Of a stretch of DNA of 64,000 nucleotides, positions 10,701 to 30,411 are shown piece after piece. Location: NCBI GenBank assembly GCA_963971425.1, contig OZ020517.1, forward strand, positions 22,392,462 to 22,456,461, written 5' to 3'. Each line of letters opens with the position of its first letter. Position 1 is the stretch's first letter. The position numbers and the translations under genes were made by a program. The notes under the pieces were generated by a model. The model worked only from the letters and a program-made list of their open reading frames with translations, searched no databases and was not told the origin of the DNA. The DNA is from Bryoerythrophyllum caledonicum. Lineage: Eukaryota; Streptophyta; Bryopsida; Pottiales; Pottiaceae.

Positions 10701-13700
10701 TTTGCCATGCTTCAATAGCTGCATCCGAGTCATCAACTTGACTGGGAGGGACAAAATACTCTCCATGACCTAAGCCTTTAAACGTAGGCATGTCCTGGAC
10801 AACATTAGTGTCTTCAGGCTCAGATTCTGAATTGGGATCAGTAGTCCAATCTGAAGCATCATCCTGGGTCTCACCATGATAGTTTGCAGGAAACATAGGG
10901 AGAATAATTTGACTTTTACCCTTCCCAATTGTTAAAGTTCCCTTACCCCAATCGTCCTTAGCTTTAGCCAATGACAACCAAGGCCTGCCAAGGAGTATAG
11001 GATATGTGGAAATGGACTCACTCACCTTAAAGACAATATAGTCAATTTTATAATCAATTCCACCAATTATTGTATTTAATTGTATCAATTTTCCCAAAGG
11101 TTTGACTCTACTTTGATCGGCCATTCTTAAAATAATGGGAGTAGGAACTAAGTTGGTTATACCCAACTCTTCCATAGTGTCAACATTCATAAGGTTGACA
11201 CTACTCCCACTATCAATTTGGACTCCATCAATTAAAGTTCCATCTATAATTACATCGACTGTAGGTGCACCTGGATCTAGAGAGATATCATGAACGTTCA
11301 CAATTTCGGGTTGAGATTTACTTGTTTCCTTATTTATTTTTTGTTTAGTTCCTTTAACATTGCCCTCCTCTTGTATTTTTGCTCTCTTTCTAATTAGAGA
11401 AGATGTTAATTCATTTTTACAATAAGGTGACAATGCAAGTAATTGTCTCAAAGAAATTTGAGGTTGTAATCTATCTAAATCTGTGAGAATATCATATGGA
11501 TGCATACCCACTGTTAATCTCATAATTCTATTATGTTTTTTCTTTTTTAAAGACATAGATGATTCTTTCATTATCTTTTTTGAAGGCTTATAAAAAGTAG
11601 GTTGTTCCAATGGTTTCATGGAGGTACTTGTTTTTTCCACTTTTGGAATTATAGGTACAACTTTTTCTGGCAAAGTAGATGTTATAGGTACTTGAGTTGG
11701 ATTTTCCTGAGAATCACTACTTGTCATCTCTATTATTTGTGGTGATGGTTTAAGAATTTCTGGTCTTTTTAGTATAGTTGGCATATCTCTAGCAAGCACA
11801 GGATTAAGTTTTACTTTGCTATAATCACTCTCTGAACTATTAATGGGTTCTTTTTCAAGGGTCTTCTTGGCTTGTGATCTAGTGATAAAGACATCTTGAG
11901 GTGTATCAATTGCCATATAATTAACATTTCTAGTATTAGAAGACTCTACTTCTTGAATTTGAACTTGTTTCCTAACATTAGGAAACTCAGTAATTATGGC
12001 TGTGCAAAAGGTAGAAACATGTCCTGTTTGGCCACATCTCCCACACAAGGGATTAAAACCAACTTGTTGACGTGCATTTGTGCATTCCCTAGAATAATGA
12101 CCTGGCTCTCCACATCTATAACATATTACTTCTTTGTTTCGATCTTGGTTAGGTTCTCTCCAAACTTGATGTTGACTATAACCATTATTTCTTCTCGGAT
12201 TGTTATTATTGTTTCCTGGTCTGGTGAAAGGTTGTTTGGATGTAATTCTATAAGGTTGTTTCTGGTTATTATTTTGAGAAGGTTGCTCTTGTACTAAGGC
12301 CTTAACTTCCTTGATATTTCTACAAGTAGTTATATCATGACCCTTTGCACCACAATAAGCACATTTAAGCTTAGGTGTTCCTCCTATAGGATATCTACAC
12401 TCGGTGGCCAAGTGTCCATGTCCCTTACAATTACTACACCAAATATTAGTTCGTTGATTAGTAGCCTTAGGTCTTTTATTTTTTCCTTCATTAACTTGGA
12501 CTGACAATTCCCTAAATTGTTTTTGTAAGGCTTGTAGCTCATTTTCCTCATGACTTGGAGGCATCAACGCAAGTTGTTGCTCTCGAGGATGAGGTGGTCC
12601 TTGTATGGTTAATTGGGGTTGACTAGATGTTGACCTAGGATAATAATCTCTTCCACTATTATCCATCCCATATTGAGTAGATACAGGTAAAAGATATGGA
12701 TCCTGATATGGAATTCTTTTTGTTTGTAACAACATATTAGATCGCTGCATAGCAGCTTCCCAATTTCTAGCAGCTTCATATGCTGCATTTAAATTTGCCG
12801 GGTTGGAAAGTTTAACCTGGTATATACACATAGGATCTAATAAACCTCTGGTAAAGGTATTAGTGATCCATGCTTCTGGCATATTATGATCTCGCCATCT
12901 ATTCAATAAGTTTCTAAGCCGAGTATAATATCCGGCTATAGTTTCTGTGGGATACATTTGAAAACTTTGTAACTGATCCTGCAAAGTATTATGATAAGAC
13001 TGGGGTCTGAACCTGGTCAAAAATGCTTCTTTTAAAGCATCCCAGTTTATTGGTTGAGGATCTAATGCCGCATACCACCTCTGAGCTTCCCCTAGTAAAT
13101 TACTAGGAAAACTAGTGATGTACTTATCAATTGCTAAATTATTAGCTATTGCTACTACTTGAAATCTTTCCAAGTAGGAATCTGGATCTTCTCCCAAGTC
13201 ACCATAGAATATGGGAAATGGAGCTATATTAAGCATCCTATGATGCGCCATAGCAAGGGAATTAACACAAGGGTCGTCTGGAGTAGGAGGGGTTGAAGGT
13301 GGTGAGGATAATGAGGACCTGCTAGAGGTAGAACTAGCAGAAGAAGAGTCAAAAGGAGAAGTCCTCCCAGAAGTATGTGAGGGGAGTCCAGCTGGACTCT
13401 CTTCTCGCACTGGTGGTTCTGAGTGCTCTTCTTCTTTACTTTCACTATTAAATAAACTTTCACCTTCTTTAGGCTCACTTTGCTCACCTACATCTAACTT
13501 TTCCTCTTTAATAGGATTATACTTAAATTCCGCTCCTTCTACACTAATTTGGTCAATCTCTTCTTGTATGTCAAAGTTTAAAGTGGTAGGTCTAAGAATT
13601 TGACTAAAAGCTTCTAATAACTCCTTACGAAACTTATGCTTTTCTTCTTCATTTTCCAATGGTCTATCATTCAGAAAATGGTCAATAGATTCTTTTGCTT

Positions 13701-14355
13701 CACTATGAGTAAATATTGGTATTGACTCAAATTCTTGGGCAAAAGGACTTGGATAGGGAGTTTCAAAGTTTGTTTGGTCTGAGGAGTTACCTACTTCATA
13801 TGTACGATTTATTAAAGATTGGGGTATGGGGGTTCTAAACAATCGCTCTAACTCATCAAGTTGTTGATCATGAATGTTAGGTTTTTCATCCACTTCTTCC
13901 TCTTCTGAGGATCCTTCCTTTTCTAAGGATTTAGACCAAACCTTCTCACTTTGGGTCTCCCAATTTACTTCTTCCGGGCTACTAGAACAACAAGAGTGAC
14001 TCGTATATTTTTTATCTTTTCTTTTTCCTATATATTTCTTCCTAGGATTTTTTAAGGCTGCAAATACTAACTCTTCTGGGGTAAATTGTGGTGTCTTTGT
14101 GTCTGACTGAGGAGAATTTGGAGGATCGGGTAGTGTTTTATATGTTGTCTCCTTTTTTGTTTGTCTCAATGCCTTTTCTAAGGCTATTTCTATTTCCTCA
14201 TCTAGTTTGAAGGGAGAAGGAGTTGTAACAGTGTTAAAGGTAGGATTATGTACTCCTAACACTATAGTTGGTTGTTTCCTCTCTACCCTTTTCTTATAAC
14301 GTTGAGCTCTCTCGACTTTTTGTTTCTCTCTTTTCTCTTTGTCTTTTCCTGACAT
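7777..14355 (-). pseudogene. gag-pol: A1 gag-pol
   Basis: One long gag-pol region in the order gag, protease, reverse transcriptase, RNase H, integrase. Gag starts MSGKDKEKREKQKVERAQ and has a long acidic, serine-rich N-terminal arm of about 370 residues before the capsid-like part (near 13236-12700). Four CCHC zinc knuckles follow at about 12444-12000. The protease DSGSS motif lies near 11210, the reverse transcriptase FLDDF near 9915, RNase H (VDASNMAIGSVLSQ) near 9470, and the integrase zinc-binding and DDE parts (WGIDFVGPI, VSDRGTHF) at about 8900-8300. There is no chromodomain. About one break is visible; otherwise it looks whole. The start matches that of A2 at 27746, each lying just after a short conserved leader. 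Confidence 0.93.
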
Positions 14356-14413
14356 TAGTAATCCCCATAGGTTTTTTATTTTTATCCTTATTCTGAACTT
14401 AATTTTTAAATTT

Positions 14414-14698
14414 TTAATTTAAACAAAGATAAATTGCTTCCTCCGTAAGCTTCATTCCCTCAACTTCCCATGCAATGTTTCGTGGATACTTATACATAGT
14501 TAGTAAGGCTCCCATTTCATTTTCTCCCAACCATTCACTGGCTATACCTATTAAAAGGTCTATCTCACTTTCGGCTATTTTCAAATATCCCCCATCATAA
14601 GGTCCTATACGGTGATACGCACAAATTGTAGTGATTAATCTCCTAATTATTTTCCCACCATTAACTGGGGTACATAAAGGATCACTCTCTCGGTTCAT
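14414..14698 (-). CDS. A1 small upstream ORF 4 (94 aa), paralogue of ORF 3
   Basis: A 94-residue ORF ending about 60 bases before gag. Its C-terminal half (EWLGENEMGALLTMYKYPRN, ending EEAIYLCLN) matches the ORF at 14747-15028 and the single A2 ORF at 27401-27679, so ORFs 3 and 4 look like a tandem duplication. It is not recognised as a known family. It is predicted to be mostly helical and soluble, with no membrane segment or signal peptide. Conservation in A2 argues that it was a real gene of the element and not a chance frame. Confidence 0.65.
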   Translation of the reverse strand: MNRESDPLCTPVNGGKIIRRLITTICAYHRIGPYDGGYLKIAESEIDLLIGIASEWLGENEMGALLTMYKYPRNIAWEVEGMKLTEEAIYLCLN

Positions 14699-14746
14699 TT
14701 TGTCATTGGGGTACTTGTATGGTATTTCAAGGAATTATAAAGAATT

Positions 14747-15028
14747 TTAACTTGAACAAAGGTGGAGAGCCTCCATGGATAGGTTTAATTCCTTCTCTTT
14801 ATTTATGGGGTAACCTAAATATGCCAACAATTCCCCTATCTCAAGTTCACCCAACCATTCTTTTGCTTGTTCAATCAATCTCTCTATTTCAGTTTCTACT
14901 ATATCCAAATATTTCCTATCCTGACTAATGAAAGTTTCATAATAAGCTATTCTTGCATATAAGAATTTAAGGGACTTATTTCTTTCACTTTTAGAATTTA
15001 GGCGTTCAATTTTTCTCATTTGCTCCAT
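14747..15028 (-). CDS. A1 small upstream ORF 3 (93 aa)
   Basis: A 93-residue ORF that starts MEQMRKIERL and overlaps the end of the preceding ORF by 23 bases. The same start context and a similar overlap (32 bases) are found in A2. The pattern Y-K-L-x-ETEIERLI, then E-x-GELL-x3-YP and a final EALHLC, is shared with ORF 4 and more loosely with ORF 2. Function unknown. The overlapping start suggests coupled translation (reinitiation) on a multi-ORF message; this is inference. Confidence 0.65.
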   Translation of the reverse strand: MEQMRKIERLNSKSERNKSLKFLYARIAYYETFISQDRKYLDIVETEIERLIEQAKEWLGELEIGELLAYLGYPINKEKELNLSMEALHLCSS

Positions 15029-15344
15029 TGAGGTAACAATAGTGACGCCAATCAGTCAGGGTAAATGGTTCTATCTTAAATTCTCGTGACAGTGGTTCTA
15101 TTATTAATTCTCTTGGGTAATTGAATTTTTGTAAGAAAGTATTGATGATTTTTTTTCTATTAATGGAATGTTGGTTGTTGTCTTTAATACGTTCTATTTC
15201 TGTCCCCAAAAGTCTAAATAATTTCCCTTCATTGTATTGAATTTTAGAATAAATTATTAACAATCTTTTCAACCTTGTCCGTTGTTCCTTAAAAGTTTCA
15301 TTTGAGGAACTCATTTTTTTTTTTTTAAATACATAATAAATCAA
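15006..15344 (-). CDS. A1 small upstream ORF 2 (start probably at 15314, about 102 aa)
   Basis: The likely start is MSSSNETFKEQRTRLKRLL at 15314, because that is where similarity to the A2 ORF at 27115-27432 begins. The upstream in-frame methionine lies next to an A-run and is not conserved. Shared motifs are RLKRLLIIY-x-KI-x-YNE-x-KLF, KFNYPRELIIEPL and FTLT-x-W. It is basic and helical, with no known domain. The RLKRLL and FNYPREL patterns echo those of ORFs 3 and 4, so all three may be ancient duplicates. Confidence 0.65.
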   Translation of the reverse strand: MIYYVFKKKKMSSSNETFKEQRTRLKRLLIIYSKIQYNEGKLFRLLGTEIERIKDNNQHSINRKKIINTFLQKFNYPRELIIEPLSREFKIEPFTLTDWRHYCYLNGANEKN

Positions 15345-15843
15345 AGGCTACACTCACGGGAACTTCTGGATCTTTAGATAAGAAGTCGGGAAAGAATACT
15401 TTGCTCTCTAAGTTTTGTTTACTATAAACAAAGATATAAGTTTCTTGATTAAACTTGTATCCGTTCCAAGCCCCTAAGCCTCTAGAAATTAATGGTTGTG
15501 TTTGAAGTTTCAATCTACCATATTGAGCAAAAAGGTAGTGTAGTTGATATTTTAAATATAAAGTCTTTTTCTTGACAATTACTTCATTAAAACCCTCACC
15601 CTTATTCCACACTTTGTTTAAAATTAATTGTTTAATTTCTAAGGGTAGTTGTTCAAATTTTTCATTAAATGATTGATCAATTTTTAGGTGAGCCCCATAA
15701 AATTGAAATCCTTGTCCATAATACGCACCTCTATAGACACGATAAAGGGCGCTAAACAAATATGGACCACTAAAGAAGTCACTCAAAGTTTCTTCAGAAA
15801 CCTCCCATGGAAAAGTAGACATGTTGTAACAACATGTCTTCAC
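15325..15843 (-). CDS. A1 small upstream ORF 1 (172 aa; start probably MSTFPWEV)
   Basis: The first ORF after the primer-binding site. Similarity to A2 (26617-27111) begins at the internal methionine MSTFPWEVSEE, making about 165 residues the likely product. It is strongly conserved, for example GPYLFSALYRVYRGAYYGQG, YGAHLKI, NKGEGFNEVIVKKK and FFPDFLSKDPE. It is rich in aromatic residues, and no signal peptide or membrane span is evident. No family is recognised. Ogre-type Tat elements carry an unassigned ORF upstream of gag, so position is precedented, but homology is not claimed. By eye the protein is better conserved between A1 and A2 than the LTRs, pointing to past selection on the protein. 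Confidence 0.75.
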   Translation of the reverse strand: MKTCCYNMSTFPWEVSEETLSDFFSGPYLFSALYRVYRGAYYGQGFQFYGAHLKIDQSFNEKFEQLPLEIKQLILNKVWNKGEGFNEVIVKKKTLYLKYQLHYLFAQYGRLKLQTQPLISRGLGAWNGYKFNQETYIFVYSKQNLESKVFFPDFLSKDPEVPVSVAFDLLCI

Positions 15844-16000
15844 TCTTTACAAATTTTAATTTTTAAATTTTTTTAAATAATGTTTTTCAAAGTTTATAAC
15901 TTCACATAAAACTAAATGCTATGATAGTTTACTTAAGTAATTGACTTAAGTTTGACAGCTTTCCTAATTAAAATTACTTAAAAAAAAAACTTGACGGTAC
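15844..16000 (-). other. A1 short 5' leader
   Basis: About 157 bases between the primer-binding-like site and the first small ORF; AT-rich. Nothing specific is seen apart from one CTTAAG-type motif near 15935. A2 has a comparable leader of about 200 bases. Confidence 0.5.
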
Positions 16001-16021
16001 CATCCCCAGCATGGTCGCCAA
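16001..16021 (-). other. A1 primer-binding-like site
   Basis: On the minus strand TGGCGACCATGCTGGGGATG follows the LTR end after a short T-run. The identical site is present in A2 at 26399-26419. It has the TGGCGAC...GGGGA form that I recall from Tat/Ogre elements. The matching tRNA was not identified. Confidence 0.75.
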
Positions 16022-16026
16022 AAAAA

Positions 16027-18014
16027 TGTAGAGTTGGTTTTCACCACTCTAAGAAAACACCCAAGTGTACCCACACCTCATAGGATTCGTTACGGGGATG
16101 ATCATACGCCTAGTTTTAAGTATTTGGAGATTAATTGTGTCGTTAAAGCTATCTTTTTAGTTAATTCTTAAGGTTATCTATCTATTTTTAGGGAATTAGG
16201 GCGGTTAGCATCACTCTTAAGGGATCCACCCACAAAGTCTAATCCCAAAGGATCTCTCGTGCCTTAAGACGGAACATTAGTCCTTCTAAGATTGTGCTTA
16301 TGCCACTAATCCTTAAACACTTGCCACACTGGGCTAATGGAAGTTTCCATTAAGTCTCATTGCATTGGTTCTTTTAATTACAATCTTTAAGAATTCAAAT
16401 TCTTACCTCATGCAAAATTGCTCCACTTTTCACGTCCGTCCACTAAATCCACGTAATCACGTTCTTAAGACAAGGATTAGTCTCAAAAATCACATACACA
16501 AGTTAACTTAAGTCTTAAGGAATTTCAGCTCTTAAGTCTCCACTTAAGTTCACCTTTCCACAATTATCCCTTAAAGACCACGGTGTTCCACACTTACTCG
16601 TACCACTTAGTCTTTAAGATGTCTGAATTTTACTTAAGACTTCGCTCTTAGTTGACTCCATGTTCTTAAGAACACAGTTTCTGTCCTTGAGTTCTTAAGC
16701 ACTCACTTACTCAATCGGGACTGATTCTTAAGAACCTGTACTGTCTAGACCAATTCAGCCCTACAGTGTTCTTAAGTTTCTGTCTTAAGACTTCCAGAAT
16801 CGGGAATGCATCTCACTGAATGCAAATGATGTCCCATATTCTCACTCATACGGATCTTAAGTCCCAGCCCTTAAACTTAAGGGTCTACTGGTACTTAAGA
16901 TCTCAATCTTCATAAGCTTATGTATCCAAACTTGGACTTAAGATTCTTAAGTTTCTATGTTCTGTTCTTAAGTCTTTCTTTGGGATTTATTCCTTATTTT
17001 CTCTCTTATGCTAGATTCTTTTAAATACTCACAACTTAGCCTACCTTAGAGAATCCATTCTATTAAGGTTAGACTTAATGCCAATTTTTTGTATGCATAA
17101 TATGACACTCTTGCCATGCATCAAGGTATGCCACTCTTGATGTTTATTGCATCAAATTGCATTAACATGAATAAGAACTCCATTCTTATTCTTATGATAC
17201 TCAAGTTATGCTCACTCACACTCGAGATCTTATTAAGTACTTATGCATCACACATCTCATGTACTAAGTCACTTAATTTCACATTATCTCTATTAATCTT
17301 CACACTCATGATTAATGCTCCAACACACACACAAGGTCACACACACGACCTTAGTAGTTAGGGTATTTCCCTAACTTATTTCATGAAGAATAAATATACA
17401 ATGCATTCATGCATAAGAATTTTATCCACAATTAATACCTAATGCATGCACTTGTATTTACAACACACAATGTCAAATTTATGCAATGAAGTTCACATAA
17501 TATTGCAATTATACATATAACTCAAGTCACAAGACTCTACATATGCAAATTCAATAACAATTATATATTCATATATAAAATTAAATACTCTTACAACATT
17601 AAGAGTCATCAACTAGCTCTTTCACCTAAAGCTAGGGCTCACTCCAATCTTCCTCCAAGGAATTTCTATGGTAATGGCCAAGAATGCTAAAAATTCAAGC
17701 TAGTCATTCTACTCAACATCCAAGAGGTACAACTCTTGGAAAGAGGTTTTCCCTAGTAGTATTAACCATTAAGATTAATTCCACTAAATCTTCACATCTC
17801 TTCATATCCATTCATGAAAAGGTACACTCTATCCAAAGGGTGCGAGTCCAACCCTTTTCCCATTATTTCCTTATTCTTGGATATGAATAGGTACTTTCCA
17901 CCTAATTATCTACTTAGTGTAAACTTAATCATTAATTTTTTAATTCTCCATATATCTACAACCCTTTTTACACTTAATTTTCGGAAAAAAGCTAATTTTG
18001 TCATTTTGGCTCTA
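16027..18014 (-). repeat. A1 5' LTR (about 1.99 kb)
   Basis: On the minus strand this LTR begins near TGTAGAGCC and ends CTCTACA, giving short inverted ends. The part at 17318-18014 matches 1-697 base for base by eye. The interior (about 16460-17000) is rich in the hexamer CTTAAG, with roughly 17 occurrences, a looser form of the regular array in the related A2 LTR. No protein-coding function is seen; the short ORFs inside are chance ORFs duplicated with the LTR. Confidence 0.93.
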
Positions 18015-18560
18015 TAGGGACTTACCAAGGAACCCTTACGACTTCGATTCAAAGTAGGCACTGATGCGTACACTCACATCTCTGTTAGGTGTGTTGTAAC
18101 AAGTGCTACAAGCTATGACATTCTTTTGGGGCAGCAAGCATTGTATCCCATTGGTTTTGGTCATGGTTTTTGGACTGAAGAAGCATGGTTCCGACCGGGG
18201 TGGTCACAAGGGAATGGACGAAAGGAAGTAATTCCTGTCATCTTCGGTGCTTTTGTTGGTGTGGTTGAGGGATTGGTGGCAGTATATGGATGTGCTGCGG
18301 AATGGTTTTTAACTGGAGATTTATTGCTAGAGGGCAACATGTCTTCTACAGACTCACCTCCAGAGTTGGCAATGCAAGCACATAGAAAAATCAAGTCGTT
18401 TGAACAACATCCCAAGGATCCTATACCACCATGGATTTCACCAGAAAATTTAACTCAGCAATGTGAAGAGTTAGTGGAGGGGGTTCCTCCACAATTTTGG
18501 AAACCTCAATCCACACCACCACCGCTACAACAACTCGTAGATCTTCACAATGACTTTGGG
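18015..18560 (+). pseudogene. B: end of protease and linker
   Basis: The first residues after the A1 boundary read like the end of a retroviral-type aspartic protease: RLRFKVGTDAYTHISVRCVV, then SYDILLGQQALYPIGF, matching the usual 'ILLGxxxL' end. The active-site part would lie left of A1, outside the window. A linker of about 140 residues follows, tryptophan- and glycine-rich at first and then proline-rich (PPWISPENL, PPQFWKPQSTPPP), of no recognised family. It leads directly into the methyltransferase. Confidence 0.7.
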
Positions 18561-19540
18561 GGCATAATTTAAGTGAAGCTATTTGCTAGACTTGGTATTG
18601 GTTTGGCTGCTACATTGGAGGCCGGATTGTCTATACGAAGTTATACATATGTAGACAATAATATTGTGGTGAGCAGGGCTGCCAAACATCATTTAGAGAT
18701 GTTGAGGCTTCAATATCCAACACAGCTTCCCGCAAGCGCCATTCAAGATTGTATGTCTCGAGTTCCTTCAGATATTGCCTTGATTGGAGAAGAGGATCTT
18801 CGAAGGTTGGGTAGAGTAGACCTTGTGATGGTTGGATGGCCTTGCCAAGGTCATTCCCGGGCTGGATCTGGCCAAGGACTCCAAGACCCCCGCTCAGGTT
18901 TATTTTGGGAGCTCTTGCGCTTGTTACATTGGTGGCAAAAAGAGCAGGCTACAAATATGGCCTATATCCTTGAGAATGTGCCTCCACTACAAGATATTAG
19001 AGCCCAAATTCACGAGGATGTCAAAGTGGTATGTCACCACTTAGGTGACCCGGTGGCTGTAGATGCTGTAGATGCTGTAGCTCTTGGTTCCTACGCCCAT
19101 CGTTTACGATGGAAATGAACTAATTTGGCCCATGGACTAGGAATTTCAGCAGCATTACATCACATAACACGCCCTGAGGGAAGACACCTTGATGACATCT
19201 TGGAGGAGGGACGGTCTACTCAAGCGGTGGTACAAGATGATCAGCCACCTTTGGTTGTTGTTAACCGTATTGGAATGCCTCATTTGGCATTTCCTACTTT
19301 GATGAGTTATCCTCGGTCGTTTGCTTTCCGCAATGGTGGACCCGGCTTGGTGTTTGACGCTACTTCTATGCGATTGGAGGAGCCATGCGCTAATGAACAA
19401 GAGCGAGCTATGGGATTTCGGACCGGTGCCACAAGTGGGCCTGGTTTGAGAGAGTCTCAACGGCGACATTGCCTTGGGCAAGCCATGGACTTGACTTCTA
19501 TGGTTTGGTTCTTTGGAATATGTCTAGCAGCTCAACGGTA
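18561..19540 (+). pseudogene. B: C5 cytosine DNA methyltransferase domain
   Basis: The region shows the ordered motifs of a C5 DNA methyltransferase. A motif I-like stretch (LGIGLAATLEAGL) with an acidic residue after the following strand lies near 18590-18660. The catalytic motif IV, VDLVMVGWPCQGHSRAG, has its PCQ near 18840. DPRSGLFWELLRLLH follows, then motif VI ENVPP near 18972. The RLRWK-x-TNL motif VIII is near 19100, and a late QERAMGF and GQAMD motif (IX-X) near 19400-19490. SGLFWELLRLL and RLRW-x-TNL are closest in look to the DNMT3/DRM type, but that is by eye. The enzyme would transfer a methyl group from S-adenosylmethionine to cytosine. It is an internal domain of the retroelement polyprotein, between protease and reverse transcriptase; it is a fossil with several breaks. 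Confidence 0.85.
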
Positions 19541-20005
19541 CAAAAAATTTGGCATTGACAACCATCTGGGGGCAGATGCTTCAAGCCAGGGGGCAAAGAT
19601 AGTTGTGCCTCTAACTATGGAGAAGATGAATTCTTTACATGTCAAGGCTTGGCATGATGGTCGACAAGCTTGAAACCAAGCACTTGAGAAGAGAAGGGCC
19701 GAAGATGCTGTGGAGTGGCTTGTACTAGATGAGTTAAGAGGACAACGTGTGTTGTCAGCATTGGCCCAGGACCTAGGCATGAAAGATGCCAAGGAGAAGT
19801 TCAAAAGGATGTTTCTTACGAAGGAAAACCCTTATTTCATTACATCATCTCATTCTAAAGATGGTGTTGATGGTAATTCAATTAGAATAGCAATGAGTGA
19901 TGATGCATCTATTGTCCTGGACAAGGGCGATGGTGTAAGCTCGTCCAATTAGCAACCAGAGTTGGTGCTAGCACCGCCAAAGAGCCCCTAAAGAATAACA
20001 TAGTC
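19541..20005 (+). pseudogene. B: spacer between methyltransferase and reverse transcriptase
   Basis: About 465 bases of worn coding-like sequence, for example AVEWLVLDELRGQRVLSALAQ and KEKFKRMFLTKENPYF. No known domain is recognised. It may be a linker of the ancestral polyprotein. Confidence 0.5.
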
Positions 20006-22910
20006 GTGCCAATGTCAATGAACAAGGATTGGGAAATGGATATAGGCATGGGGCTCACTGATGCAGAGGCACGGAAAGTGCGAGCTTTCATACGCTTGTA
20101 CAAGGCTTGCTTTGCTTTTAAACTTACTGACTTGGAGGGCTATAAAGGCAAGCCAGTAAGGATACAATTAGAAGATGACCATCCAGCATTTAGACACCCA
20201 TATAAGCTCAGCCTTTCTGAAAGAGATGGGGTCAAATTGAGATGCAAAGAATTATTGGACGCCGGATTGGTAGAACTCTCAGATGGAGAGTATGCATGTG
20301 CCACGGAGATGCCAGCAAAGAAAGATATTCTTGGAAATTGGACAGAGAAGCGGATGTGCGGAGATTACCGTCCTATAAACAAAAAGACAAAATTTGATCG
20401 ATATCCTATGCCAACACCTGAGGAGATATTTGATGCAGTTGGAAAGGCAAAAGTTTTTAGTACTTTGGATCTGAGGTCTGGGTACCATCAATTGCCATTG
20501 AGACTAGAAGATAGGGTGAAGACGGCATTTTGGGGGGTAGATGATGATGAAAGAGATATGCTTTTCCATTGGAAGTTTTTACCTTTTGGCTTGAAGAATG
20601 CTCCGGCGTAGTTTCAACGTGTAATGGATCAAGTCTTAAAAGGGTTACCATTTGCTCGATGTTACATAGATGATGTAATCATCTTTAGTAATACACCAGA
20701 GGAGCATGTAAGACATTTACAACAAGTCTCTGACAGGCTACAAGCTTGGGGTCTTCGCTTACATCCTGGAAAATGTAAATTTTTCCATGATAAGCTGCCT
20801 TACTTGGGGCACATGATTACACTAGGAGGATTGGGAGTACATGAGGCGAAGGTATTTGAAGCTTTGAAGAGGATACCAATTCCTAGGGATGTATCAAGGT
20901 TGAGAGCATTTATAGGACTAGCTAACTATTATCGACGATTTGTTCGAGGGTTTAGTCTCTTAGCCAAACCTTTGACCCGATTGACTCGAATTGATCAAGA
21001 ATGGATTTAGGGTCCTGATCAAGAATGGATATAGGGTCCTGATCAAGAAAATGCATTTGAGGCTTTGAAGGGAGCACTTGGTTCAGCACCAGTGTTGAGG
21101 CGGCCCGATGCTCGACGGCCTTTCCAGCTCCATACAGATTGGAGTATGTTAGGAATTGGTGCCGTGTTAACTCAAAAAGATGATGATGGCAAGGAGTATG
21201 TCATTGCGTACGCTTCACGAAGCAACAATGATGCAGAGGCCAAGTATTCATCATATGAAGGGGAGTGCTTAGTAGTTGTGTGGGCCGTTGCCCACTTTCG
21301 CCCATATCTTTACGGTCAAAGCTTTACCCTTGTGACAGATCATCAACCTTTAAAATGGTTGATGGAATCTGATAAACTTACATGAAAGTTGGCTAGATTG
21401 GCCTTGCTATTACAAGAGTATGATTTTGAAGTAGTCCACAAGGCGGGATTGCAAAATTTAGATGTTGATGGCTTGAGCCGCAATCCAAGCCCGTTGGAAG
21501 AGGACTTGACTGGTGCCAGGTGGCATGGTACTTGTGATCAGGAAGCAGTGCCTCGGTAGCATGCTTCATCTTATTTGGCATGGATGGAAGGAAGATCTGG
21601 CCAAGATATAGGAGGAACTGGACTGGATGTTGTTGATGAGGACTTGGATGCAAAAGGACCTCGAGTCACCATTGATGTGTGGAAGGACCAAGGAATTCTA
21701 CATCGTCTTCAACATGGGGAGTTTTTGCCTAATACCACACCTCAAGAAAGAGACCGAATAGCTCATTGTTTGGCTAGGTTTCATTGGGAGAGTGGACTTA
21801 TATTCTGAATATGGCCGGATGGAACACAAAATGTTGTGCCTAGGCTTGACCAACGTCTTCAATTGATACGTCAAGTTCATGAAGAGTTGGGCCATTTTGG
21901 AGTACGTCGGACGTATTCAATGTTACGTGGTTTATATTGGTGGATGGGCATGCAACAAGAGGTGGCAATCTATGTAGGAAGGTGTGAAGTGTGCGATCGA
22001 GTGAGATCAAGCTTCAACACTCTAACTCCTCAATTACGGCCTTTACCAATCATGGGTTTGGGTTATAGATGGAGTCTTGACTTTGCTGGACCATTAATAA
22101 CCACATCACGAGGTGCCAAGTATGTACTTGTGATGATAGAGCACTTCAGCAAATGGATTGAGTTGGTAGCACTACTACAAAATTCCGCGGAACTAGCAGC
22201 AGCGGCATTCCTAGACCGTGTATTGGCTAGATTTGGAGCTCCAGGTGAAGTGTTGACAGACCAAGGAAGAGAATTTTTGGGAGAATTTGAAGAGCTTTGT
22301 ACAAAGGCTTTGATTGATCACCGTACTACATCGAAAAATCATCCAGAGGCTGATGGATTGGCAGAGAGGGTGGTTCAAACAGTCAAACGCGGGTTACGCA
22401 AATACGGGTTGTTGGTAGGCAATCATCAAGATTGGGATTTGAAGTTGCCATGGATAGCAATGGGCTATCGTTTTAGTTGACAAGCCTCTCTTGCATCATA
22501 TAGCCCTTACCAGCTATTGTATGGCAGAGAGCCAATATTACCATCGGCATTAAGGGAGAAATTGGATTCTGTAGTGGACTTGGATGACCCCGGAGTTTGG
22601 GCAGAGGTGCTACGAGATCAAGCCGAGTATTTCCAGAGAGCCATGCCAATAGCTATGGAAAATTTGGCAATAGCACAACACAGAGATACTCTGAGATATG
22701 CACGTATTAGAAGTGGGGCTTATAAGCCTCAACTTCGTCGATTTAAGGTTGGAGATTACGTGTATTTACAACGTAAGACACCAACAACCTTGGATGTTCG
22801 GGTAGGGAGGACCATTTTAAGGGTCAAGGCAATTCTGCCCAGTGGAGTAGTTCTTTTGGAGGGAAAAGATGGACAAGAGTGCAGAGATAACACAAAAAAA
22901 TTGTGCTCCT
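20006..22910 (+). pseudogene. pol: B: reverse transcriptase, RNase H and integrase
   Basis: In order: reverse transcriptase with DYRPINKKTKFDRYPMP, FSTLDLRSGYHQLPL and the CYIDDVIIFS active-site block (near 20670); RNase H with TDWSMLGIGAVLTQ (near 21140) and YEGECLVVVWAV; and integrase with an H-H-C-C zinc-binding part (ELGHFGVRRTYSML, CEVCDRV; near 21890-22000) and the DDE parts WSLDFAGPL, LTDQGREF and HPEADGLAERVVQTVKRG (near 22075-22390). The C-terminal part (FKVGDYVYLQRKTPT) resembles a GPF/GPY module. This is the standard gypsy order. Its clade is different from the three Tat/Athila-like families in the window. Several breaks are present. Confidence 0.9.
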
Positions 22911-22937
22911 TGTCATCTACCAATTGAAGGGACTATG

Positions 22938-23117
22938 GATAAAAAATTGGCAGTTGTTCCATCTGGATACAAATGTTTTATTTGTGGAGAAAGCAAGGGT
23001 GCTGCAACTATGTTGCTATGCGATTTGTGTCAACGAGGTTGGCATATGGCATGCCTTCGACCGCCATTAGTTGTTCTCCCTATTGGGCGTTGGACTTGTC
23101 CCCATTGTAGGGACTAA
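22938..23117 (+). pseudogene. B: C-terminal PHD finger
   Basis: The end of the integrase region carries a Cys4-His-Cys3 finger: CFICGES, then LLCDLCQRGWHMACLRPP, then WTCPHCRD before the stop. Spacing (C-x2-C, C-x2-C, H-x2-C, C-x2-C) and the tryptophan before the last pair are typical PHD features. PHD fingers read histone H3 tails, so in a retroelement the likely role is to steer integration to marked chromatin, as chromodomains do in chromoviruses. It looks better preserved than the rest. A slightly different reading frame from integrase is possible, so how it was joined to pol is uncertain. Confidence 0.85.
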
Positions 23118-23465
23118 TCCATTGATACTACTTTTCAAAGTAGTTGTTGATGATCTTTCCTAAATTCTAATAACGGAAGATGCAGACACTTATGACATTC
23201 TATGTTGAGCATGACCGGTGGCTCTTGATATTGTAGCTTGGAGAAAGAATTTGTGGAGTTCAACTAAAAGTTAGAAGCGATTGAGGATGGGGCTCAAATG
23301 CACCAGTTTACCCCTTTACTGATGATTGATTCAAGCCTAGCTATGGACAGGGCCTGCCGCATGTCTTCTTCATCATGTTGATTGTATCAAAAGTTAATGT
23401 AGGTTATTTGATTTTAATGAATTTCAATTTATACTGCTAGCTGAGTTGCGAGGGCGCTTTACTCA
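23118..23465 (+). other. B: 3' untranslated region
   Basis: About 350 bases between the PHD finger and the purine tract. No ORF, repeat or RNA gene is seen. Confidence 0.5.
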
Positions 23466-23478
23466 GCTAAGGGGGCAG
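23466..23478 (+). other. B: polypurine tract
   Basis: CTAAGGGGGCAG lies just before the start of the LTR-like repeat at about 23482. Both place and composition fit a plus-strand primer. Confidence 0.65.
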
Positions 23479-24119
23479 TTAGATGGTTGTTTATCCATGC
23501 CTTGTTTTAGTCTAGATTTGCTCTTAAAGCATTTGTATATGGTTTACCGTTGATAGGCTTATTGTTTACGACACCTTCTATTAGCGATGTAGAGCGACAC
23601 GACAGCTGTCACGTTAGTTGATGGCGGGTGGTTGTTAGGCTCTATATGGCTTATTAAGAGTCAATAGTAGACTTAGTATAGCCAAGACGGCCATGTATTG
23701 GCTATTGGGGGGCTAGACTAGTGTTTTTAGACTGTTAGAGGTGTGAATGGAGCTATTATGGGGCTCTTTTGGGGTGGTTGTAACCCTTGGCCGCCCCCTT
23801 GCTTTTTCATTCTCTTCAAGTCTTGCATGTTGTTGTAGTTTGAGTTGATAGGAGTTAGAGCATATTGTTGTAGATGATGGTTGGTGCTTTGCCAATCTTT
23901 TTACAAAGTGTTACTCCTTTTCTCAAGCGTTTTTGTGAGACTAACCCATTGAGACAAACTAGGAGTTTTCTTGGAGTTTGAGGAAGCTTATTTATTGGAT
24001 GGTTGTTTATCCATGCCTTGTTTTAGTCTAGATTTGCCTTAAAGCATTTGTATATGGTTTACCGTTGATAGGCTTATTGTTTACGACACCTTCTATTAGC
24101 GATGTAGAGCGACACGACA
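23479..24119 (+). repeat. B: 3' LTR followed by a partial second copy
   Basis: A 122-123 base segment at 23482-23604 (starting gatggttgtttatcc, ending gcgacacgaca) recurs almost exactly at 23998-24119. The first copy directly follows the polypurine tract. The simplest reading is an LTR of about 516 bases (about 23482-23997) followed by the beginning of another copy, cut at 24119. Alternatively it is an internal duplication near the end of a longer LTR. The TG...CA ends are not certain. Confidence 0.6.
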
Positions 24120-24444
24120 AGGACGAGGAGGATCCTTTTGACATGATCGCGATAGGGTATGAGAAGGCTAAGGAGACTTACGAGCGGATCGAGGTCATCT
24201 TGGCCAAAGCGTGCCGGATTGCGGGTGACGTGGGAGCAGACGAACTTTGCGTACATCTGGAGCGGAACCTGCAACCTCGGAACGTGTAGGAGTTGGAGGC
24301 TCGGCTCGTCTCCCTGGAGAACGAGAACCGGAAGATGAAGACAGCCATGAACCAGAAGAAGGTGAAGTGGGCTGCATCGATGGGTAAGGCAAACGATTCC
24401 GCAATTGCTCTCACCCGTGTGACGGAATTCGAGCAGCAGCCTAG
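24120..24444 (+). other. Unexplained coding-like segment between B and A2
   Basis: GC-richer than both neighbours. One frame reads as a charged helical protein (EEDPFDMIAIGYEKAKETYERI, then ELEARLVSLENENRKMKTA), like part of a coiled coil. No match is recognised to the accessory proteins of A1 or A2. It could be a piece of an older element into which B and A2 inserted, or of a host gene; there is no evidence to decide. A2 begins at 24445 with the expected TGTAGAG end. Confidence 0.35.
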
Positions 24445-26392
24445 TGTAGAGCCTAAATCCTTAAAATAGATTTTTTCAGAAAATTAAGTGTAAAAAGGGT
24501 TGTAGATATATGGAGAATTAAATAATTAATGATTAAGTTTACATTAAGTACTTAATTAATTGAAAAGTACCTCTTCATATCTAAGATAGAAGGATTAATG
24601 GGAAAAGGGTTGAACTCGCACCCTTTGGGAAGGGTGTACCCTTTCATATCTAGATATGAATAGATGTGAGGATTTAGTGGAATTAATCTCAATGGTTAAT
24701 TATAGGCAAAACCGTTTTTCCAAGAGGTGTGCCTCTTGGGTTTGAGTAGAATGACTAGCTTGAATTTTTAGCATTCTTGGCCATTACCATAGAAATTCCT
24801 TGGAGGAAGGTTGGAGTGAGCCCTAGCTTAGGTGAAAAAAGCTAGTAATTGAAGAAATCTCTTATGTTGTAAGAGTATTATGTTGTGTGTGAAATTATTA
24901 ATATATAATTATTATTGAATTTGCGTGTGTAGAGTCTTGTGTGTGACTTGAATCATATGTATAATTACAATAATATTTGAACTTCATTGAATAAATTTAA
25001 TATTGTGTTTTGTGAATGCAATATATGCATGAGGTATTAATTGTGAATAAATTCCTATGCATAAATGCATTATATATTTATTTAGATCTTCATTGTAAAA
25101 ATTAGGATACTATCCTAATTAATTATGTGACATGAAATTGTGTGTGTGATGAATTAAATTTATTGTATTACATATGAGTGAAATATGAATACTTAATAAT
25201 GTTAAAACTTCAAGAGATAAAGTTAGGGAAGATCCTAACTATGTCAAAGTGACATTGGGAATATTAATGTAATAATTCTAAGTGTATGTAAGGCATTTAG
25301 AAATTAATTTGGAGTAAGAAACTTAATGCATTAATGTGAGGAATGCATAAGTAATTGATGAAATACTTAAGTTCAGGTGTGGAAACTTAAGTATTAAGAC
25401 ATAAGACGGGAGTCTCGTGCATGTGTAAACAACAAAACTTAAGTCTAGAGTTAGGAAGGACTTAAGTATGAATGACAGGACTTAAGTCTAAGTGGAAGAA
25501 CTTAAGTCTGAATGATAAAACTTAAGTCTAGAGTGAAGAGGGACTTAAGTATAAGTGACAGGACTTAAGTCCAGAGTGAGAAAGAACTTAAGTATAGACG
25601 ATAGGACTTAAGTATGAGTGTTAGGACTTAAGTCTACTGTGGGATAGAACTTAAGTTTAAGTGATAAAACTTAAGTCTGGAGTGCAAAAGAACTTAAGTA
25701 TAAACGATAAGGACTTAAGTCCAGGTGTTAGGACTTAAGTCTACTGTAAGGGAAAACTTAAGTCTAAGTTACAGAACTTAAGTCATGCAAGTGTAAGAGT
25801 GAAGATACTCTTTTTGCATTTAAGTGTTAAGGACTAATAGATAGGTTAGACTTAAGTCCGGACTTAGAGTAGAAATATTTAGAGGCTTAATCTAACTTAT
25901 GTGTTGTTCGAGACTAACACTTGTGATAAGTACGTGAGTACGTGAACCGTGGGATGTACGTGAAAAGTGGAGCGAATTACACGAGGTAAGTTTGTGAATT
26001 CTAAATGGAATTAATTAAGGAATCAACCATGAGTGCAATGGATAGTATCTAAATGCCGAAGATGGCAAAAGTATAGGAAACTAACAAACGTGCATATTCA
26101 TAGTTAACTCAAGAGCAAGGCTCTTTGAAGGAGCAAGGTTCTACCTAAGCACTTAAATCCTTGGGATTAATACCTTAAGAGTGGAATGTTAAGGGTGATA
26201 TGTTTTAAGGCTAAATTCCCTAAAAACGAGTGCATAAACTTAAGTATTTCAATGGAAAGATAGCTTTTTGACCTCTAATTAAAGACAAACTACTTAACGG
26301 TTGACGCTAGACCATCCCGGGAAGAATTTAGAATCAAGGATAGACTTGTGTGAGTCTTGGGTGTTTTGCGAAGGTGAAATTTCACGATTACA
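24445..26392 (+). repeat. A2 5' LTR (about 1.95 kb)
   Basis: Begins TGTAGAGCC and ends TTACA directly before a T-run and the primer-binding-like site. The first 200 bases align with the minus-strand start of the A1 LTR, for example the shared stretch around gttgtagatatatggaga. It contains the ACTTAAGT array at 25365-25783. The partner LTR must lie beyond 64000. Confidence 0.88.
25365..25783 (+). repeat. Phased array of the palindrome ACTTAAGT inside the A2 LTR
   Basis: Nineteen copies of the 8-base palindrome start at 25365, 25385, 25437, 25460, 25480, 25500, 25520, 25543, 25563, 25586, 25606, 25626, 25649, 25669, 25692, 25713, 25733, 25756 and 25776. Steps are 20 or 23 bases, with one of 21 and one of 52. 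The underlying unit is about 43 bases (20 + 23), and the bases between palindromes vary more than the palindromes. This is about two helical turns, so all sites face nearly the same side of the DNA. A binding-site array for a dimeric protein is plausible but unproven. Confidence 0.9.
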
Positions 26393-26398
26393 TTTTTT

Positions 26399-26419
26399 TG
26401 GCGACCATGCTGGGGATGG
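26399..26419 (+). other. A2 primer-binding-like site
   Basis: TGGCGACCATGCTGGGGATG, identical to the A1 site, seven bases after the LTR end. The tRNA was not identified. Confidence 0.75.
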
Positions 26420-26616
26420 TACCGCCAAGTGTTGAGTAGTTTTTAATCAAAGAAAGTTGTCATTAATTACGTTGAATACTTAAGTATTACTGTGAATTAA
26501 AGTGTATTAATGAACAAGGAGGTTCATTATAAAAAACACAAAAATTAAGGATTTGATCCAAAAGTGAATTGGACATACCTAGTGTGAGAACCCATGGGAG
26601 GAAAAGTTAGGAGAAC

Positions 26617-27111
26617 ATGTCTTTTCCATGGGAAATTAATGAAGAAAGTCTAAGTGACTTCTTCAAAGGACCATATTTATTTAGCGCCCTATATCGTGTT
26701 TATAGAGGTGCATATTATGGTCAAGGTTTTCAATTTTATGGGGCACACCTAAAAATTAATAGAAACTTTAAGGAAAAGTTTGAACAATTACCGATAGAAA
26801 TTAAACAAATAATTTAAAATAAAGTGTGGAATAAAGGTGAAGGATTTAACGAAGTAATTGTCAAGAAAAAGACATTGTATTTGAAATACCAACTACAATT
26901 TCTTTTTGCTCAATACGGTAGATTAAAACTTCAATCCCAAACTTTAATTTCTAAAGGTATTGGAACTTGGAACGGATTTAAGTTTGATAAAGAAACTTAT
27001 ATCTTTATTTATAGTAAACTTAACTTCCAAAGTAAGGTGTTCTTTCCAGATTTCTTGTCTAAAGACCCAGAACTTCCCGTGACTATAGCTTTTGATTTAT
27101 TATGTCTTTAA
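26617..27111 (+). pseudogene. A2 small upstream ORF 1
   Basis: Counterpart of the A1 ORF at 15325-15843, starting MSFPWEINEESLSDFFKGPY. The protein is close to A1 throughout, with GAYYGQGFQFYGAHLKI, NKGEGFNEVIVKKK and FFPDFLSKDPE. About one break. No recognised family. Confidence 0.72.
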
Positions 27112-27114
27112 TCA

Positions 27115-27432
27115 ATGAATTTTGAAAATGAAACATCTAAGGACTTAAGAACTAGGTTGAAAAGATTGTTAATAATCTATGAAAAAATTAAGTATAATGA
27201 ATTGAAATTATTTAACCTTTTGGGGAAGGAGATAGAAAAAATTAAGGAAAATAATAAAAATTCAAAAAAGAGGATTGATATCATTAATGGTCTTTTAAGA
27301 AAATTTAAATATCCAAGGGAATTAATTATTGAACCTTTACCATTAATGATAAAAATAGAAAATTTTACCCTAACAACTTGGTATCATTACCAAATTCTTT
27401 ATGGAACAACCATGGGAGAGTCCTCTGAGTAG
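27115..27432 (+). CDS. A2 small upstream ORF 2 (105 aa)
   Basis: Starts only three bases after the end of the previous ORF and matches A1 15006-15314: RTRLKRLLIIYEKIKYNE, KFKYPRELIIEPL and FTLTTWYHY. Lysine-rich and helical. Its 3' end overlaps the next ORF by 32 bases, as in A1. Function unknown. Confidence 0.65.
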   Translation: MNFENETSKDLRTRLKRLLIIYEKIKYNELKLFNLLGKEIEKIKENNKNSKKRIDIINGLLRKFKYPRELIIEPLPLMIKIENFTLTTWYHYQILYGTTMGESSE

Positions 27433-27679
27433 AAGGTCTAGAATAATAAGACGCATAATAACCAAAGTTCAACGTTATAAAACTCTTGCACCTAATGATA
27501 GGAAAGAGTTAAAAATACTTGAGGACGGGATAGACGGATTACTTGGACAGTTAAGTCATTGGGTGAGTGCTGAGGAGATGGGAGAGCTCTTGACTATCTT
27601 AAATTATCCTAGGCATATCCATGAAGATGTTAAGAAAATGAATCTTTCAGAGGAGGCTATTTATCTTTGCTTAAATTAA
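27401..27679 (+). CDS. A2 small upstream ORF 3/4 (92 aa)
   Basis: Starts MEQPWESPLS inside the end of the preceding ORF. The start resembles A1 ORF 3, while the body (RRIITKVQRY, EEMGELLTILNYPR, EEAIYLCLN) is nearest A1 ORF 4. A2 therefore has one gene where A1 has two, which fits either a duplication in the A1 lineage or a deletion between two copies in A2. It ends about 66 bases before gag. Confidence 0.65.
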   Translation: MEQPWESPLSRRSRIIRRIITKVQRYKTLAPNDRKELKILEDGIDGLLGQLSHWVSAEEMGELLTILNYPRHIHEDVKKMNLSEEAIYLCLN

Positions 27680-27745
27680 AAATCTAAACATAAAAAATCA
27701 AAAATCAAAATTAAAATTAAGATAAAAACTCTATGGGGATTACTA

Positions 27746-28899
27746 ATGTCAGGAAAAGACAAAGAGAAAAGAGAAAAACAAAAAGTTGAGAGAGCTCAAC
27801 GTTTTAAGAAAAGGGCAGAGAAAAAACAACCCTCTATAGTATTGGGAGTACACAATCCTACCTTTAACACTGCTACAACTCCTTCTCCATTCAAATTAAA
27901 TGATGAATTAGAAAAAGCCTTAGCAAAGGCATTGGGACAAATTAAAAGGGAGAAAACATATAAGACACTACCCGACCCTCCAAATTCTCCTCAGTCAGAA
28001 TCAAAGAAGCCACAGTTTACTCAAGAAGAGTTAGTACTCGCAGCATTAAAAAATCCTAGAAAGGAATATATAGGAAAAAGAAAAAAGAAAAAATATACCA
28101 CTCACTCTTGCTGTTCAGATAGCCCAAAAGTAGAAAATTGGGAGACCCAAAGCGAGAAAGCTTGGTCTAATTTCTTACAAAAGGAAGGATCCTCAGAGGG
28201 GGAAGAAGTAGATGAAAAACTTAATCAAGGTATACTTAACGTTCACGATCAACAACTTGATGAGTTAGAACAATTGTTTAGAACCCCCATACCAAACTCC
28301 TTAACAATTGATCATACCTACGAAGTAGATAACTCCTCAAACCAAACAGACTTTGAGACTCCCTATCCAAGTCCTTTTGCTCAAAGATTTGAGTCCAAAT
28401 TAGAAACACCAATATTCACTCATAGTGAAGCAAAAGAATCTATTGACCACTTTCTTAATGCCAGAACATTGGAAAATGAGGAAGACAAACATGAGTTTCG
28501 TAAGGAAGTGTTAGAAGCATTTAGTCAAATCCTTAGACCTACTACCTTAAACTTTGACATACAAGACGAGATTGACCAATCTGGTGCGGAGGAAGACGAG
28601 GTTAAGTATAATCTTATTAACGAGGAGGAGTTTGAAGTAAGTGGGCAAAGTGAGCCTAAAGGAGTTGAAAGTAAACTTAACAGTGTTGAAGAAGAAGAAG
28701 AACACTCAGAACCACCATCACGAGTAGAGAGTCCAGCTGGACATTCCTCAGGTACTTCTGGGAGGACTGCTCCTTCTCACACTTCTTCTGTTAATTCTAC
28801 CTCTAGCAGGTCCTCATTATCCTCACCACCTTCAACCCCTCCTACTCCTGACAACCCTTTGGTTGATCCCGTTGCTATGGCGCATCTTAGGATGCTTAA
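27746..28899 (+). pseudogene. gag: A2 gag, N-terminal arm up to the C insertion
   Basis: Begins MSGKDKEKREKQKVERAQ like A1. It covers the acidic arm with the conserved LGVHNPTFN, TLPDPPNSPQS and serine/proline-rich SSRSSLSSPPSTPPTPD stretch. It stops where element C begins, immediately before the capsid-like part, which continues after C. Confidence 0.9.
28895..28899 (+). repeat. Target-site duplication of C, left copy (cttaa)
   Basis: cttaa here and again at 41418-41422 flank element C. The uninterrupted A1 sequence has a single cttaa at the same place (in the aggatgcttaatatagctcc stretch), which confirms a 5-base duplication. Confidence 0.92.
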
Positions 28900-29867: not shown

Positions 29868-30325
29868 AGTAGATAGATTAGAAAGTTGGCTTTCCAACAA
29901 GCTCAAGAACACGCGGATCGAAGCTGTGACGACGAAGATACGGGCGGCGGAGTGAGGACGACCGGTTGGAGGATCGGTGGCGGATCTCATACGGCCTCAG
30001 GTTTTCCCTCGTCAGTAGCGGAGTTCTTGTCCAATCAGGCTAAGATTTTAGGAGTAGATAGATTAGAACGTTGGCTTTCCATCAAGCTCAAGAACACGCG
30101 GATCGGAGCTGTGACGACGAAGATACGGGCGGCGGAGTGAAGACGACCAGCTGGAGGATCGGTGGCGGATCTCATACGGCCTCAGGTTTTCCCTCGTCAG
30201 TAGCGGAGTTCTTGTCCAATCGGGCTAAGATTTTAGGAGTAGATAGATTAGAACGTTGGCTTTCCAACAAGCTCAAGAACGCGCGGATCGGAGCTGTGAC
30301 GACGAAAATACGGGCTGCGGAGTGA
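29868..30325 (+). repeat. 185-base tandem repeat in the C 5' LTR (about 2.5 units)
   Basis: Units start at 29868, 30053 and 30238, each opening agtagatagattagaa. The third is partial. The copies differ by only a few bases. The same array is in the 3' LTR at 40031-40488. Short ORFs inside it are a result of the repetition, not genes. It may hold duplicated enhancer or promoter elements. Confidence 0.9.
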
Positions 30326-30333
30326 AGAGCACC

Positions 30334-30411
30334 AACAAGAGGAGCAAGATCACGAGCTGAACAAGAGGAGCAAGATCACGAGCTGAACAAGAGGAGCAAG
30401 ATCACGAGCTG
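30334..30411 (+). repeat. 26-base tandem repeat, three units, in the C 5' LTR
   Basis: Three perfect or near-perfect units beginning aacaagaggagcaagatc at 30334, 30360 and 30386. They lie directly after the 185-base array; the counterpart is at about 40497-40574. Confidence 0.88.

Follow-up and report, generated by a model that had tools for sequence, protein, structure and literature searches.

A decayed Ty3/gypsy retrotransposon copy in a moss genome with both a Dnmt3-class DNA methyltransferase and a PHD finger, and its green-lineage relatives

The window, a stretch of 64,000 nucleotides from the moss Bryoerythrophyllum caledonicum, contains at 18018-23117 a decayed Ty3/gypsy copy with a protease tail, a Dnmt3-class C5-methyltransferase (DNMT), reverse transcriptase (RT), RNase H (RH), integrase (IN) and a PHD finger. 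We consider it probable that this is a dead, 5'-truncated copy of an element whose intact form was gag-protease-Dnmt3-class methyltransferase-leaky UAG-RT-RNase H-integrase-PHD and which worked by the mechanism proposed below. The sequences directly show the domain order and its recurrence elsewhere, the catalytic motifs that relatives retain, the stop context, which occurs in two copies, and the PHD zinc ligands. The initial annotation had described a gypsy element with both a methyltransferase and a PHD finger; its observation was right and its inference largely holds, with the Pfam order in the window as described and both domains occurring together in a protein relative (P0036) and in an intact relative (L001). 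The features of the copy and its borders are, in window coordinates:

17318-18014, minus strand: LTR stretch of the younger element that truncates the DNMT element on its 5' side, identical to 1-697 (697 bp)
18018-18563, plus strand: aspartic protease C-terminal tail and linker, aligning to the protein P0001 from residue 70, past LDTGAQ
18564-19508, plus strand: Dnmt3-class C5-methyltransferase domain (PF00145 at 1e-11, PDB profile, motif table), in-frame stops at 18570 and 19116
19509-19949, plus strand: less conserved ORF1 tail after the methyltransferase (37% amino-acid identity to L001), in-frame stop at 19671
19950-19958, plus strand: ORF1 end, TAG CAA CCA (UAG-CAR-YYA), with TAG CAA TCA at the same place in L001
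20027-21007, plus strand: reverse transcriptase (RVT_1), within a 75% match to L001 ORF2 and an 88% match to P0016
21035-21382, plus strand: RNase H (PF17919/PF17917)
21809-22900, plus strand: integrase with H2C2 zinc domain, rve core and C-terminal part (PF17921, PF00665, alignment to relatives), in-frame stop at 22478
22896-23114, plus strand: NCAPCHLP linker and PHD finger (PF00628 at about 22974-23108, 5e-11; zinc ligands)
23470-23478, plus strand: polypurine-tract-like AGGGGGCAG, found by eye, directly 5' of the 3' repeat
23479-23604, plus strand: 3' repeat copy 1 (start of the 3' LTR, or B1 of a split repeat), 98.4% to 23995-24119
23995-24119, plus strand: 3' repeat copy 2, 516 bp further on (truncated tandem LTR, or B2), with an identical 82-nt core

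Pfam was run on ten uncorrected pieces of the window copy. DNA_methylase (PF00145) matched 18573-19115 (E = 1e-11), followed by two matches to RVT_1 (5e-10 and 7e-16), RNase H (PF17919/PF17917; 2.5e-35/4e-33), Integrase_H2C2 (PF17921; 5e-17), rve (PF00665; 1e-13) and PHD (PF00628; 5e-11). Four of the ten pieces had no Pfam match up to E = 0.1 (18018-18569; 19119-19670, which holds the late methyltransferase motifs; 19674-19949; 22481-22924). The first three of these can be aligned with P0001, at 62% identity across 649 columns (window 18018-19949), and P0001 itself has Pfam matches to Asp_protease_2 and DNA_methylase. The copy follows the Ty3/gypsy order of protease, RT, RNase H and an integrase with H2C2 and rve domains, from RT to integrase by Pfam and for the protease tail by alignment to P0001 and L001. 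The active-site part of the protease is absent, having been cut away at 18015. A single reading frame spans 18018-19952, with three in-frame stops ahead of its end at 19950, and the copy as a whole is disrupted by in-frame stops and frame changes. The PHD finger lies in a different frame from the end of the integrase, whereas the two are continuous in P0016 and L001.

The copy begins at 18015 because the younger LTR element ends there, and its lost 5' part should be located to the left of the window. Three primer-site 12-mers, allowing up to two mismatches, did not match in window 23100-24460 and matched once in L001, at 2220, within its coding sequence; the copy's own 5' end is lost. The 3' repeats at 23479-24119 are compatible with either a DIRS-like split repeat or a tandem LTR. 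No further DNMT pieces were found within the window by tblastn, and the gypsy pols elsewhere in it match at 26-35%. CpG depletion was considered as a methylation scar and rejected as uninformative (element 0.51; four stretches nearby 0.21-0.67; whole window 0.60).

The surroundings in the window are a nest of broken LTR elements. A younger minus-strand LTR element occupies 1-18014, with LTR stretches 1-697 and 17318-18014 identical over 697 bp, long pol ORFs at 7777-14418 and two minus-strand ORFs at 2957-6427. A related element lies in the opposite orientation at 24447-28927, its LTR 85.7% similar to that of the left element, and together the two form a large head-to-head inverted repeat enclosing the DNMT copy. 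A coding-like stretch (24120-24446) separates the truncated 3' repeat from the LTR that follows. Further along are 185-bp tandem repeats (29867-30421; copies 2 and 3 at 96% and 62% to copy 1) and a gypsy element whose long ORFs span 49038-55010, flanked by ORFs with the same translations at 46221-47415 and 56319-57513 that look like its LTRs. No tRNA genes were found in the window.

L001, which preserves the full arrangement, is a 9,285-nt contig (CADCWO010000201.1) binned in a cyanobacterial MAG (AVDCRST_MAG81), where it is presumably a eukaryotic contaminant. Its order is gag-PR-DNMT-TAG-RT-RH-IN-PHD, the TAG being the only interruption. ORF1 (3-3491) contains two CCHC knuckles (by eye), a protease (a Pfam match under the cut-off) and the DNMT; ORF2 (3492-6635), in the same frame as ORF1, contains RT, RNase H, integrase and PHD. 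Its ends overlap by exactly 127 nt, so that L001 resembles a circular assembly of the kind expected from collapsed LTR copies. A protein labelled Candidatus Obscuribacterales (P0008) looks like another contaminant of this kind.

The methyltransferase domain of the window copy has WPCQG, ENV, AHRLRW and GQAMD in methyltransferase order, as the initial annotation had stated, and motifs I, IV (PCQ), VI (ENV), VIII and X (the late GQAMD) are unrearranged. A profile of the family searched against PDB sequences found DNMT3A, DNMT3B and DNMT3C at about 1e-17 to 5e-14, which together with the PF00145 match places the domain above background as a C5-methyltransferase. In bits, DNMT3C/3A/3B scored 66-55, M.HaeIII 34, 4onj 28, DRM2 19 and DNMT2 15; PDB 4onj ('DNA methyltransferase') we take to be tobacco DRM. 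No entry named DNMT1, CMT or MET1 was among the 55 PDB hits of this profile up to E = 10. The window piece alone had M.HaeIII as its best PDB match (1e-4), with DNMT3 at about 0.015. By profile score against PDB sequences, the retroelement DNMT appears nearer DNMT3 than DRM, CMT or MET1. Host DNMT3 also carries PWWP and ADD domains; neither had a Pfam match at E <= 0.01 in L001 ORF1 or P0001, in which the catalytic domain stands alone.

Amino-acid identity between the window copy and L001 was 58% in the DNMT, 42% and 37% in its two flanks, 77% in RT, 81% in integrase and 74% in PHD, and non-synonymous differences per site were 0.30 in the DNMT, 0.42 and 0.45 in the flanks, 0.15 in RT, 0.14 in integrase and 0.21 in PHD. 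The methyltransferase is more conserved than its own flanks and less conserved than RT, integrase and PHD. Synonymous differences were saturated in five of the six stretches, and therefore no proper dN/dS is available for them; the sixth, the tail after the DNMT, gave a dN/dS of 0.49.

The methyltransferase fold might be retained to bind nucleic acid or to build the particle, rather than as an enzyme acting on DNA, with a PHD finger whose partner is not a histone. The negative result for the Klebsormidium nitens domain in yeast (PMC5890265, as described there) is in keeping with such a role, as are a Pro to Glu change in motif IV of a second DNMT group and the loss of the catalytic Cys in Volvox and Tetrabaena proteins. 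Against it, the window copy's DNMT group, which has 38 rows, keeps PCQ in all 33 rows that are complete there and ENV in 35 out of 37, and we regard the structural reading as unlikely compared with that of a DNA methyltransferase.

Used as a protein query, with X in place of stops, 18018-19952 found 15 relatives among 8000 candidates scored. P0001 and P0002 are the nearest DNMT relatives; P0001 matches the entire query (62% identity), and the 15 include proteins from Marchantia (P0014) and Calypogeia (P0013). A DNMT profile search found 131 relatives, of which 120 were listed; for many of those listed the match is confined to gag or protease, both of which were contained in the profile's first row and so drew in such proteins. 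Among the 120 are many Marchantia models and proteins from Sphagnum troendelagicum (P0149), S. fallax (P0154) and S. jensenii (P0156 and P0195). Across both searches, the DNMT was found in Marchantia, Calypogeia and Sphagnum. Two Marchantia models (P0138 and P0150) contain DNMT, RT and RNase H in one protein, and the S. fallax protein has DNMT, RT and IN pieces by local profile, with rve the one Pfam match above the cut-off. The protease-DNMT-RT order that the initial annotation expected in further copies was found in other genomes, in L001, P0138, P0150 and, by local profile, P0154. Viral contigs scanned with the DNMT and IN-PHD alignments gave no relative.

The integrase end was followed with a query of IN and PHD, which found 288 relatives, the best 120 of which were listed. 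By local profile, 114 of these best 120 have a PHD finger, a count favoured by the presence of PHD in the query. One of them, P0016, is an ORF of 1039 aa with the order RT-RH-IN-PHD, at 88% identity, and the named PHD-bearing relatives among those listed come from Klebsormidium nitens, Calypogeia fissa, Volvox reticuliferus, Haematococcus lacustris and Tetrabaena socialis. A local DNMT profile found a whole or partial DNMT in 25 of the same best 120 (of 288), among them the named Volvox (P0087) and Tetrabaena (P0132) proteins. The order DNMT-IN-PHD occurs in 23 of the 25, P0100 reads RNase H end-DNMT-IN-PHD, and P0036 contains DNMT (C-terminal half)-RT-RH-IN-PHD in one ORF. The DNMT stretch is at least 320 residues long in nine of the 25 and shorter in the others, down to 46 (P0061).

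A chance juxtaposition, with methyltransferase and PHD fragments landing beside or inside a gypsy copy, has in its favour the many broken LTR elements nested in this region. It is refuted by independent copies: the same order occurs in L001 and P0036, DNMT with RT in P0138 and P0150, and DNMT with IN and PHD in 24 more proteins, which leaves this explanation a vanishingly small probability.

Among the bryophyte relatives, the putative pairing of both domains on one element is pieced together from separate DNMT and IN-PHD proteins. None of the named bryophyte proteins among the listed relatives combined DNMT with PHD. Apart from the named bryophyte proteins, a protease-DNMT protein (P0002) and an IN-PHD protein (P0017) each lie on an ENA contig of 36,659 nt and are therefore probably on one contig. 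The Calypogeia DNMT (P0013) and IN-PHD (P0037) proteins lie on contigs of unequal size. The listed Marchantia and Sphagnum proteins carry no PHD, and the Marchantia IN-PHD end was not among the listed matches.

The Cys4-His-Cys3 PHD finger that had been claimed behind the integrase is borne out by the Pfam match (PF00628, 5e-11) and by zinc ligands that are near-invariant, each present in 113 to 116 of 116 aligned rows. In PHD fingers that read H3K4me3, a cage Trp stands two residues ahead of the zinc His. At this position the element's PHD has Gly in 111 of 116 rows and Trp in one, and so lacks the cage Trp; an Asp follows the third Cys in 112 of 116. By such rules, these residues suggest that the PHD reads H3 without a modification at K4. 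PHF12 and CHD4 head the list of its PDB neighbours, and ATXR5 and PHF21A come lower (60 of 93 listed). DPF3, KAT6A, KDM5 and UHRF1 are also among these listed neighbours, and nearness alone therefore does not fix the ligand.

The DNMT occupies two positions in these elements, ahead of RT in a first clade, to which the window copy belongs, and directly ahead of integrase in a second. An IN-PHD tree was built by a quick method with SH-aLRT support only. Of the 120 listed proteins it took in 113, seven having been dropped with incomplete IN or PHD, and with L001 and the window copy it had 115 rows. All 24 proteins with the DNMT before the integrase fall inside one 61-row clade (support 100), in which the DNMT position of the other 37 rows is not visible. 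The window copy, L001 and P0036 fall in one 47-row group (support 94), in 32 rows of which RNase H runs into the integrase without a DNMT; a DNMT upstream of RT would mostly lie outside those protein models. RNase H ahead of the second type of DNMT was seen by profile in P0100 only, and by eye in P0130.

The DNMT tree comprised 44 of 57 rows, those below 225 residues having been dropped except for two short outgroup stretches. Its outgroup, two mammalian DNMT3 stretches, is distant, P0132 is on a long branch, and no host green Dnmt3 is included. The second group lies on one side of a branch with support 99/99 and the first on one side of a branch with 90/64. Motif IV of the second group (17 rows) reads ECQ, ECN or ECK in all 12 complete rows. 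In the volvocine proteins P0132 (Tetrabaena) and P0087 (Volvox), the catalytic Cys is lost (by eye) and the place before the integrase is kept.

Two positions, two separately grouped DNMTs and the confinement of all 24 proteins of the second type to one IN-PHD clade are what two independent captures, one upstream of RT and one directly before integrase, would produce. The two DNMT groups, however, match each other at up to 329 bits, compared with 66 bits to DNMT3 obtained with another profile, which makes the comparison a rough one. This similarity favours a common retroelement ancestry of both groups, in a tree without host green Dnmt3, and we find two captures rather unlikely beside a single DNMT that moved within an ancestral element.

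In L001, and at the matching site of the window copy, a stop that the initial annotation had missed separates DNMT from RT, and the DNMT is therefore the end of ORF1. ORF1 ends with TAG CAA CCA in the window and TAG CAA TCA in L001, both of which fit UAG-CAR-YYA, a Type I read-through motif according to PMC11166343. L001 has this context with ORF2 following in frame; the window copy keeps the context and has lost the downstream frame. The context follows 4 of 1027 TAG triplets on the plus strand of the window and 1 of 101 in L001, and in each sequence one of these is at the DNMT end. Sixteen of 23 models examined, which are protein models only, stop 72-158 residues past motif X without RT. Five of the 23 ORF models have no stop from DNMT to RT (P0036, P0137, P0138, P0141 and P0154), nor has P0150 by Pfam; gene models that run DNMT into RT may hide introns. 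The arrangement would place the methyltransferase on the Gag side in the window's branch, with DNMT made together with Gag, and RT-IN-PHD by read-through.

In the mechanism we propose, most ribosomes would halt at the UAG, giving methyltransferase in Gag-like amounts that would be packaged, while RT-IN-PHD would arise through read-through. The methyltransferase would then methylate the element's own new DNA or its insertion site, and the integrase-linked PHD would bind H3 tails unmodified at K4 and steer insertion into silent chromatin. Host DNMT3 follows an ADD-plus-catalytic logic, which the DNMT and PHD of the element would copy in two pieces. The suggestion in the initial annotation that such a family could target and mark its own copies is likewise an inference.

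A wider reading can be offered tentatively, as a possibility well short of our expectation. The elements might form a gypsy clade that is old in the green lineage and spans volvocine algae, liverworts and mosses, with a captured Dnmt3 catalytic domain as writer and, on the integrase, a PHD reader of unmodified H3K4, the DNMT having moved within Pol or been captured twice. In the window copy's branch, a leaky stop of plant-virus type would supply DNMT at Gag level, and the reader-writer coupling of host DNMT3, rebuilt in two pieces, would bring the silent state to the insertion site. The reliance on separate proteins for the bryophyte pairing slightly lowers the odds of this reading.

Why a transposon carries a host silencing enzyme is a question left by PMC5890265 (2018), as far as its text goes, and here the enzyme stands beside a probable chromatin reader. 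A DNMT branch with DNMT and RT occurs in the model liverwort Marchantia polymorpha, in which insertion sites, methylation and knock-outs are accessible. Given the leaky stop, the enzyme is predicted to be produced in bulk as a component of the particle, which makes methylation of the cDNA or of the target site a testable choice.

A gypsy element carrying a DNMT is an already known kind. The initial annotation had pointed to retroelements with DNMTs from charophytes and dinoflagellates, correctly according to the text of PMC5890265, which describes Dnmt3 in Klebsormidium Gypsy elements with DIRS-like repeats and purifying selection on the DNMT; this DNMT gave no methylation in yeast, a result that its authors call inconclusive. 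PMC12344493 likewise reports some DNMT3 members embedded in retrotransposons (LTR Copia, DIRS) of streptophytes and dinoflagellates. No paper on the PHD pairing, on bryophyte or volvocine members or on the stop between DNMT and RT was found in the open-licence literature, mostly at the level of listings, which agrees with the earlier suspicion that the pairing may be undescribed. Within that literature, what appears new is that reader and writer are paired, how far this pairing has spread, that the DNMT occupies two positions and that a leaky stop is present.

The closest known system is KnitGypsy-Dnmt3 of Klebsormidium nitens. Like the elements described here, it has an LTR Gypsy pol with an unrearranged Dnmt3-class domain and DIRS-like repeats (PMC5890265, by its description). 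Unlike them, compared by description, it comes with no mention of PHD in the main text of that paper, nor with a leaky stop or a second DNMT position in the text consulted. The window element could belong to this family or its close kin, the PHD having gone unmentioned, in which case the novelty would be the host range and one overlooked domain. The intron-less, unrearranged Dnmt3 in a Gypsy Pol ORF with DIRS-like repeats reported in PMC5890265 agrees with such kinship, as do the B1-A2-B2-like repeat at the 3' end of the window copy and the presence of K. nitens IN-PHD proteins (P0020 and P0050) in the same tree. Set against these are the absence of a K. nitens DNMT protein among the 15 relatives, or the 120 listed of 131, the lack of a DNMT stretch in three K. 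nitens integrase protein models (P0020, P0050 and P0121), and the placing of the acquisition in the K. nitens lineage by the authors of PMC5890265, according to its text. We hold this identity to be quite possible, if on the doubtful side, and keep to the reading of a distinct DNMT-leaky stop-PHD arrangement.

Other retroelements share single parts of the arrangement. SymbioDIRS-Dnmt3 and SymbioLINE-Dnmt of dinoflagellates also captured DNMTs, and the SymbioDIRS domains methylate CG in yeast, but they are of other element classes (DIRS and LINE) and live in other hosts (PMC5890265, in its text). CR1/L2 LINEs have a retroelement PHD, suggested to aid targeting, but are non-LTR elements with the PHD in ORF1, and DNMT is not mentioned in the text available (PMC4120745). 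Arthropod retrotransposons reportedly carry a captured MBD, a reader of DNA methylation; judged by title, they resemble the present elements in the captured reader and differ in reading methylated DNA and in having no writer. Chromoviruses are gypsy elements with a chromodomain, a histone reader, after the integrase. They share with the window element a histone-reader module in that place, but it is a chromodomain there, and here a PHD finger together with an additional methyltransferase.
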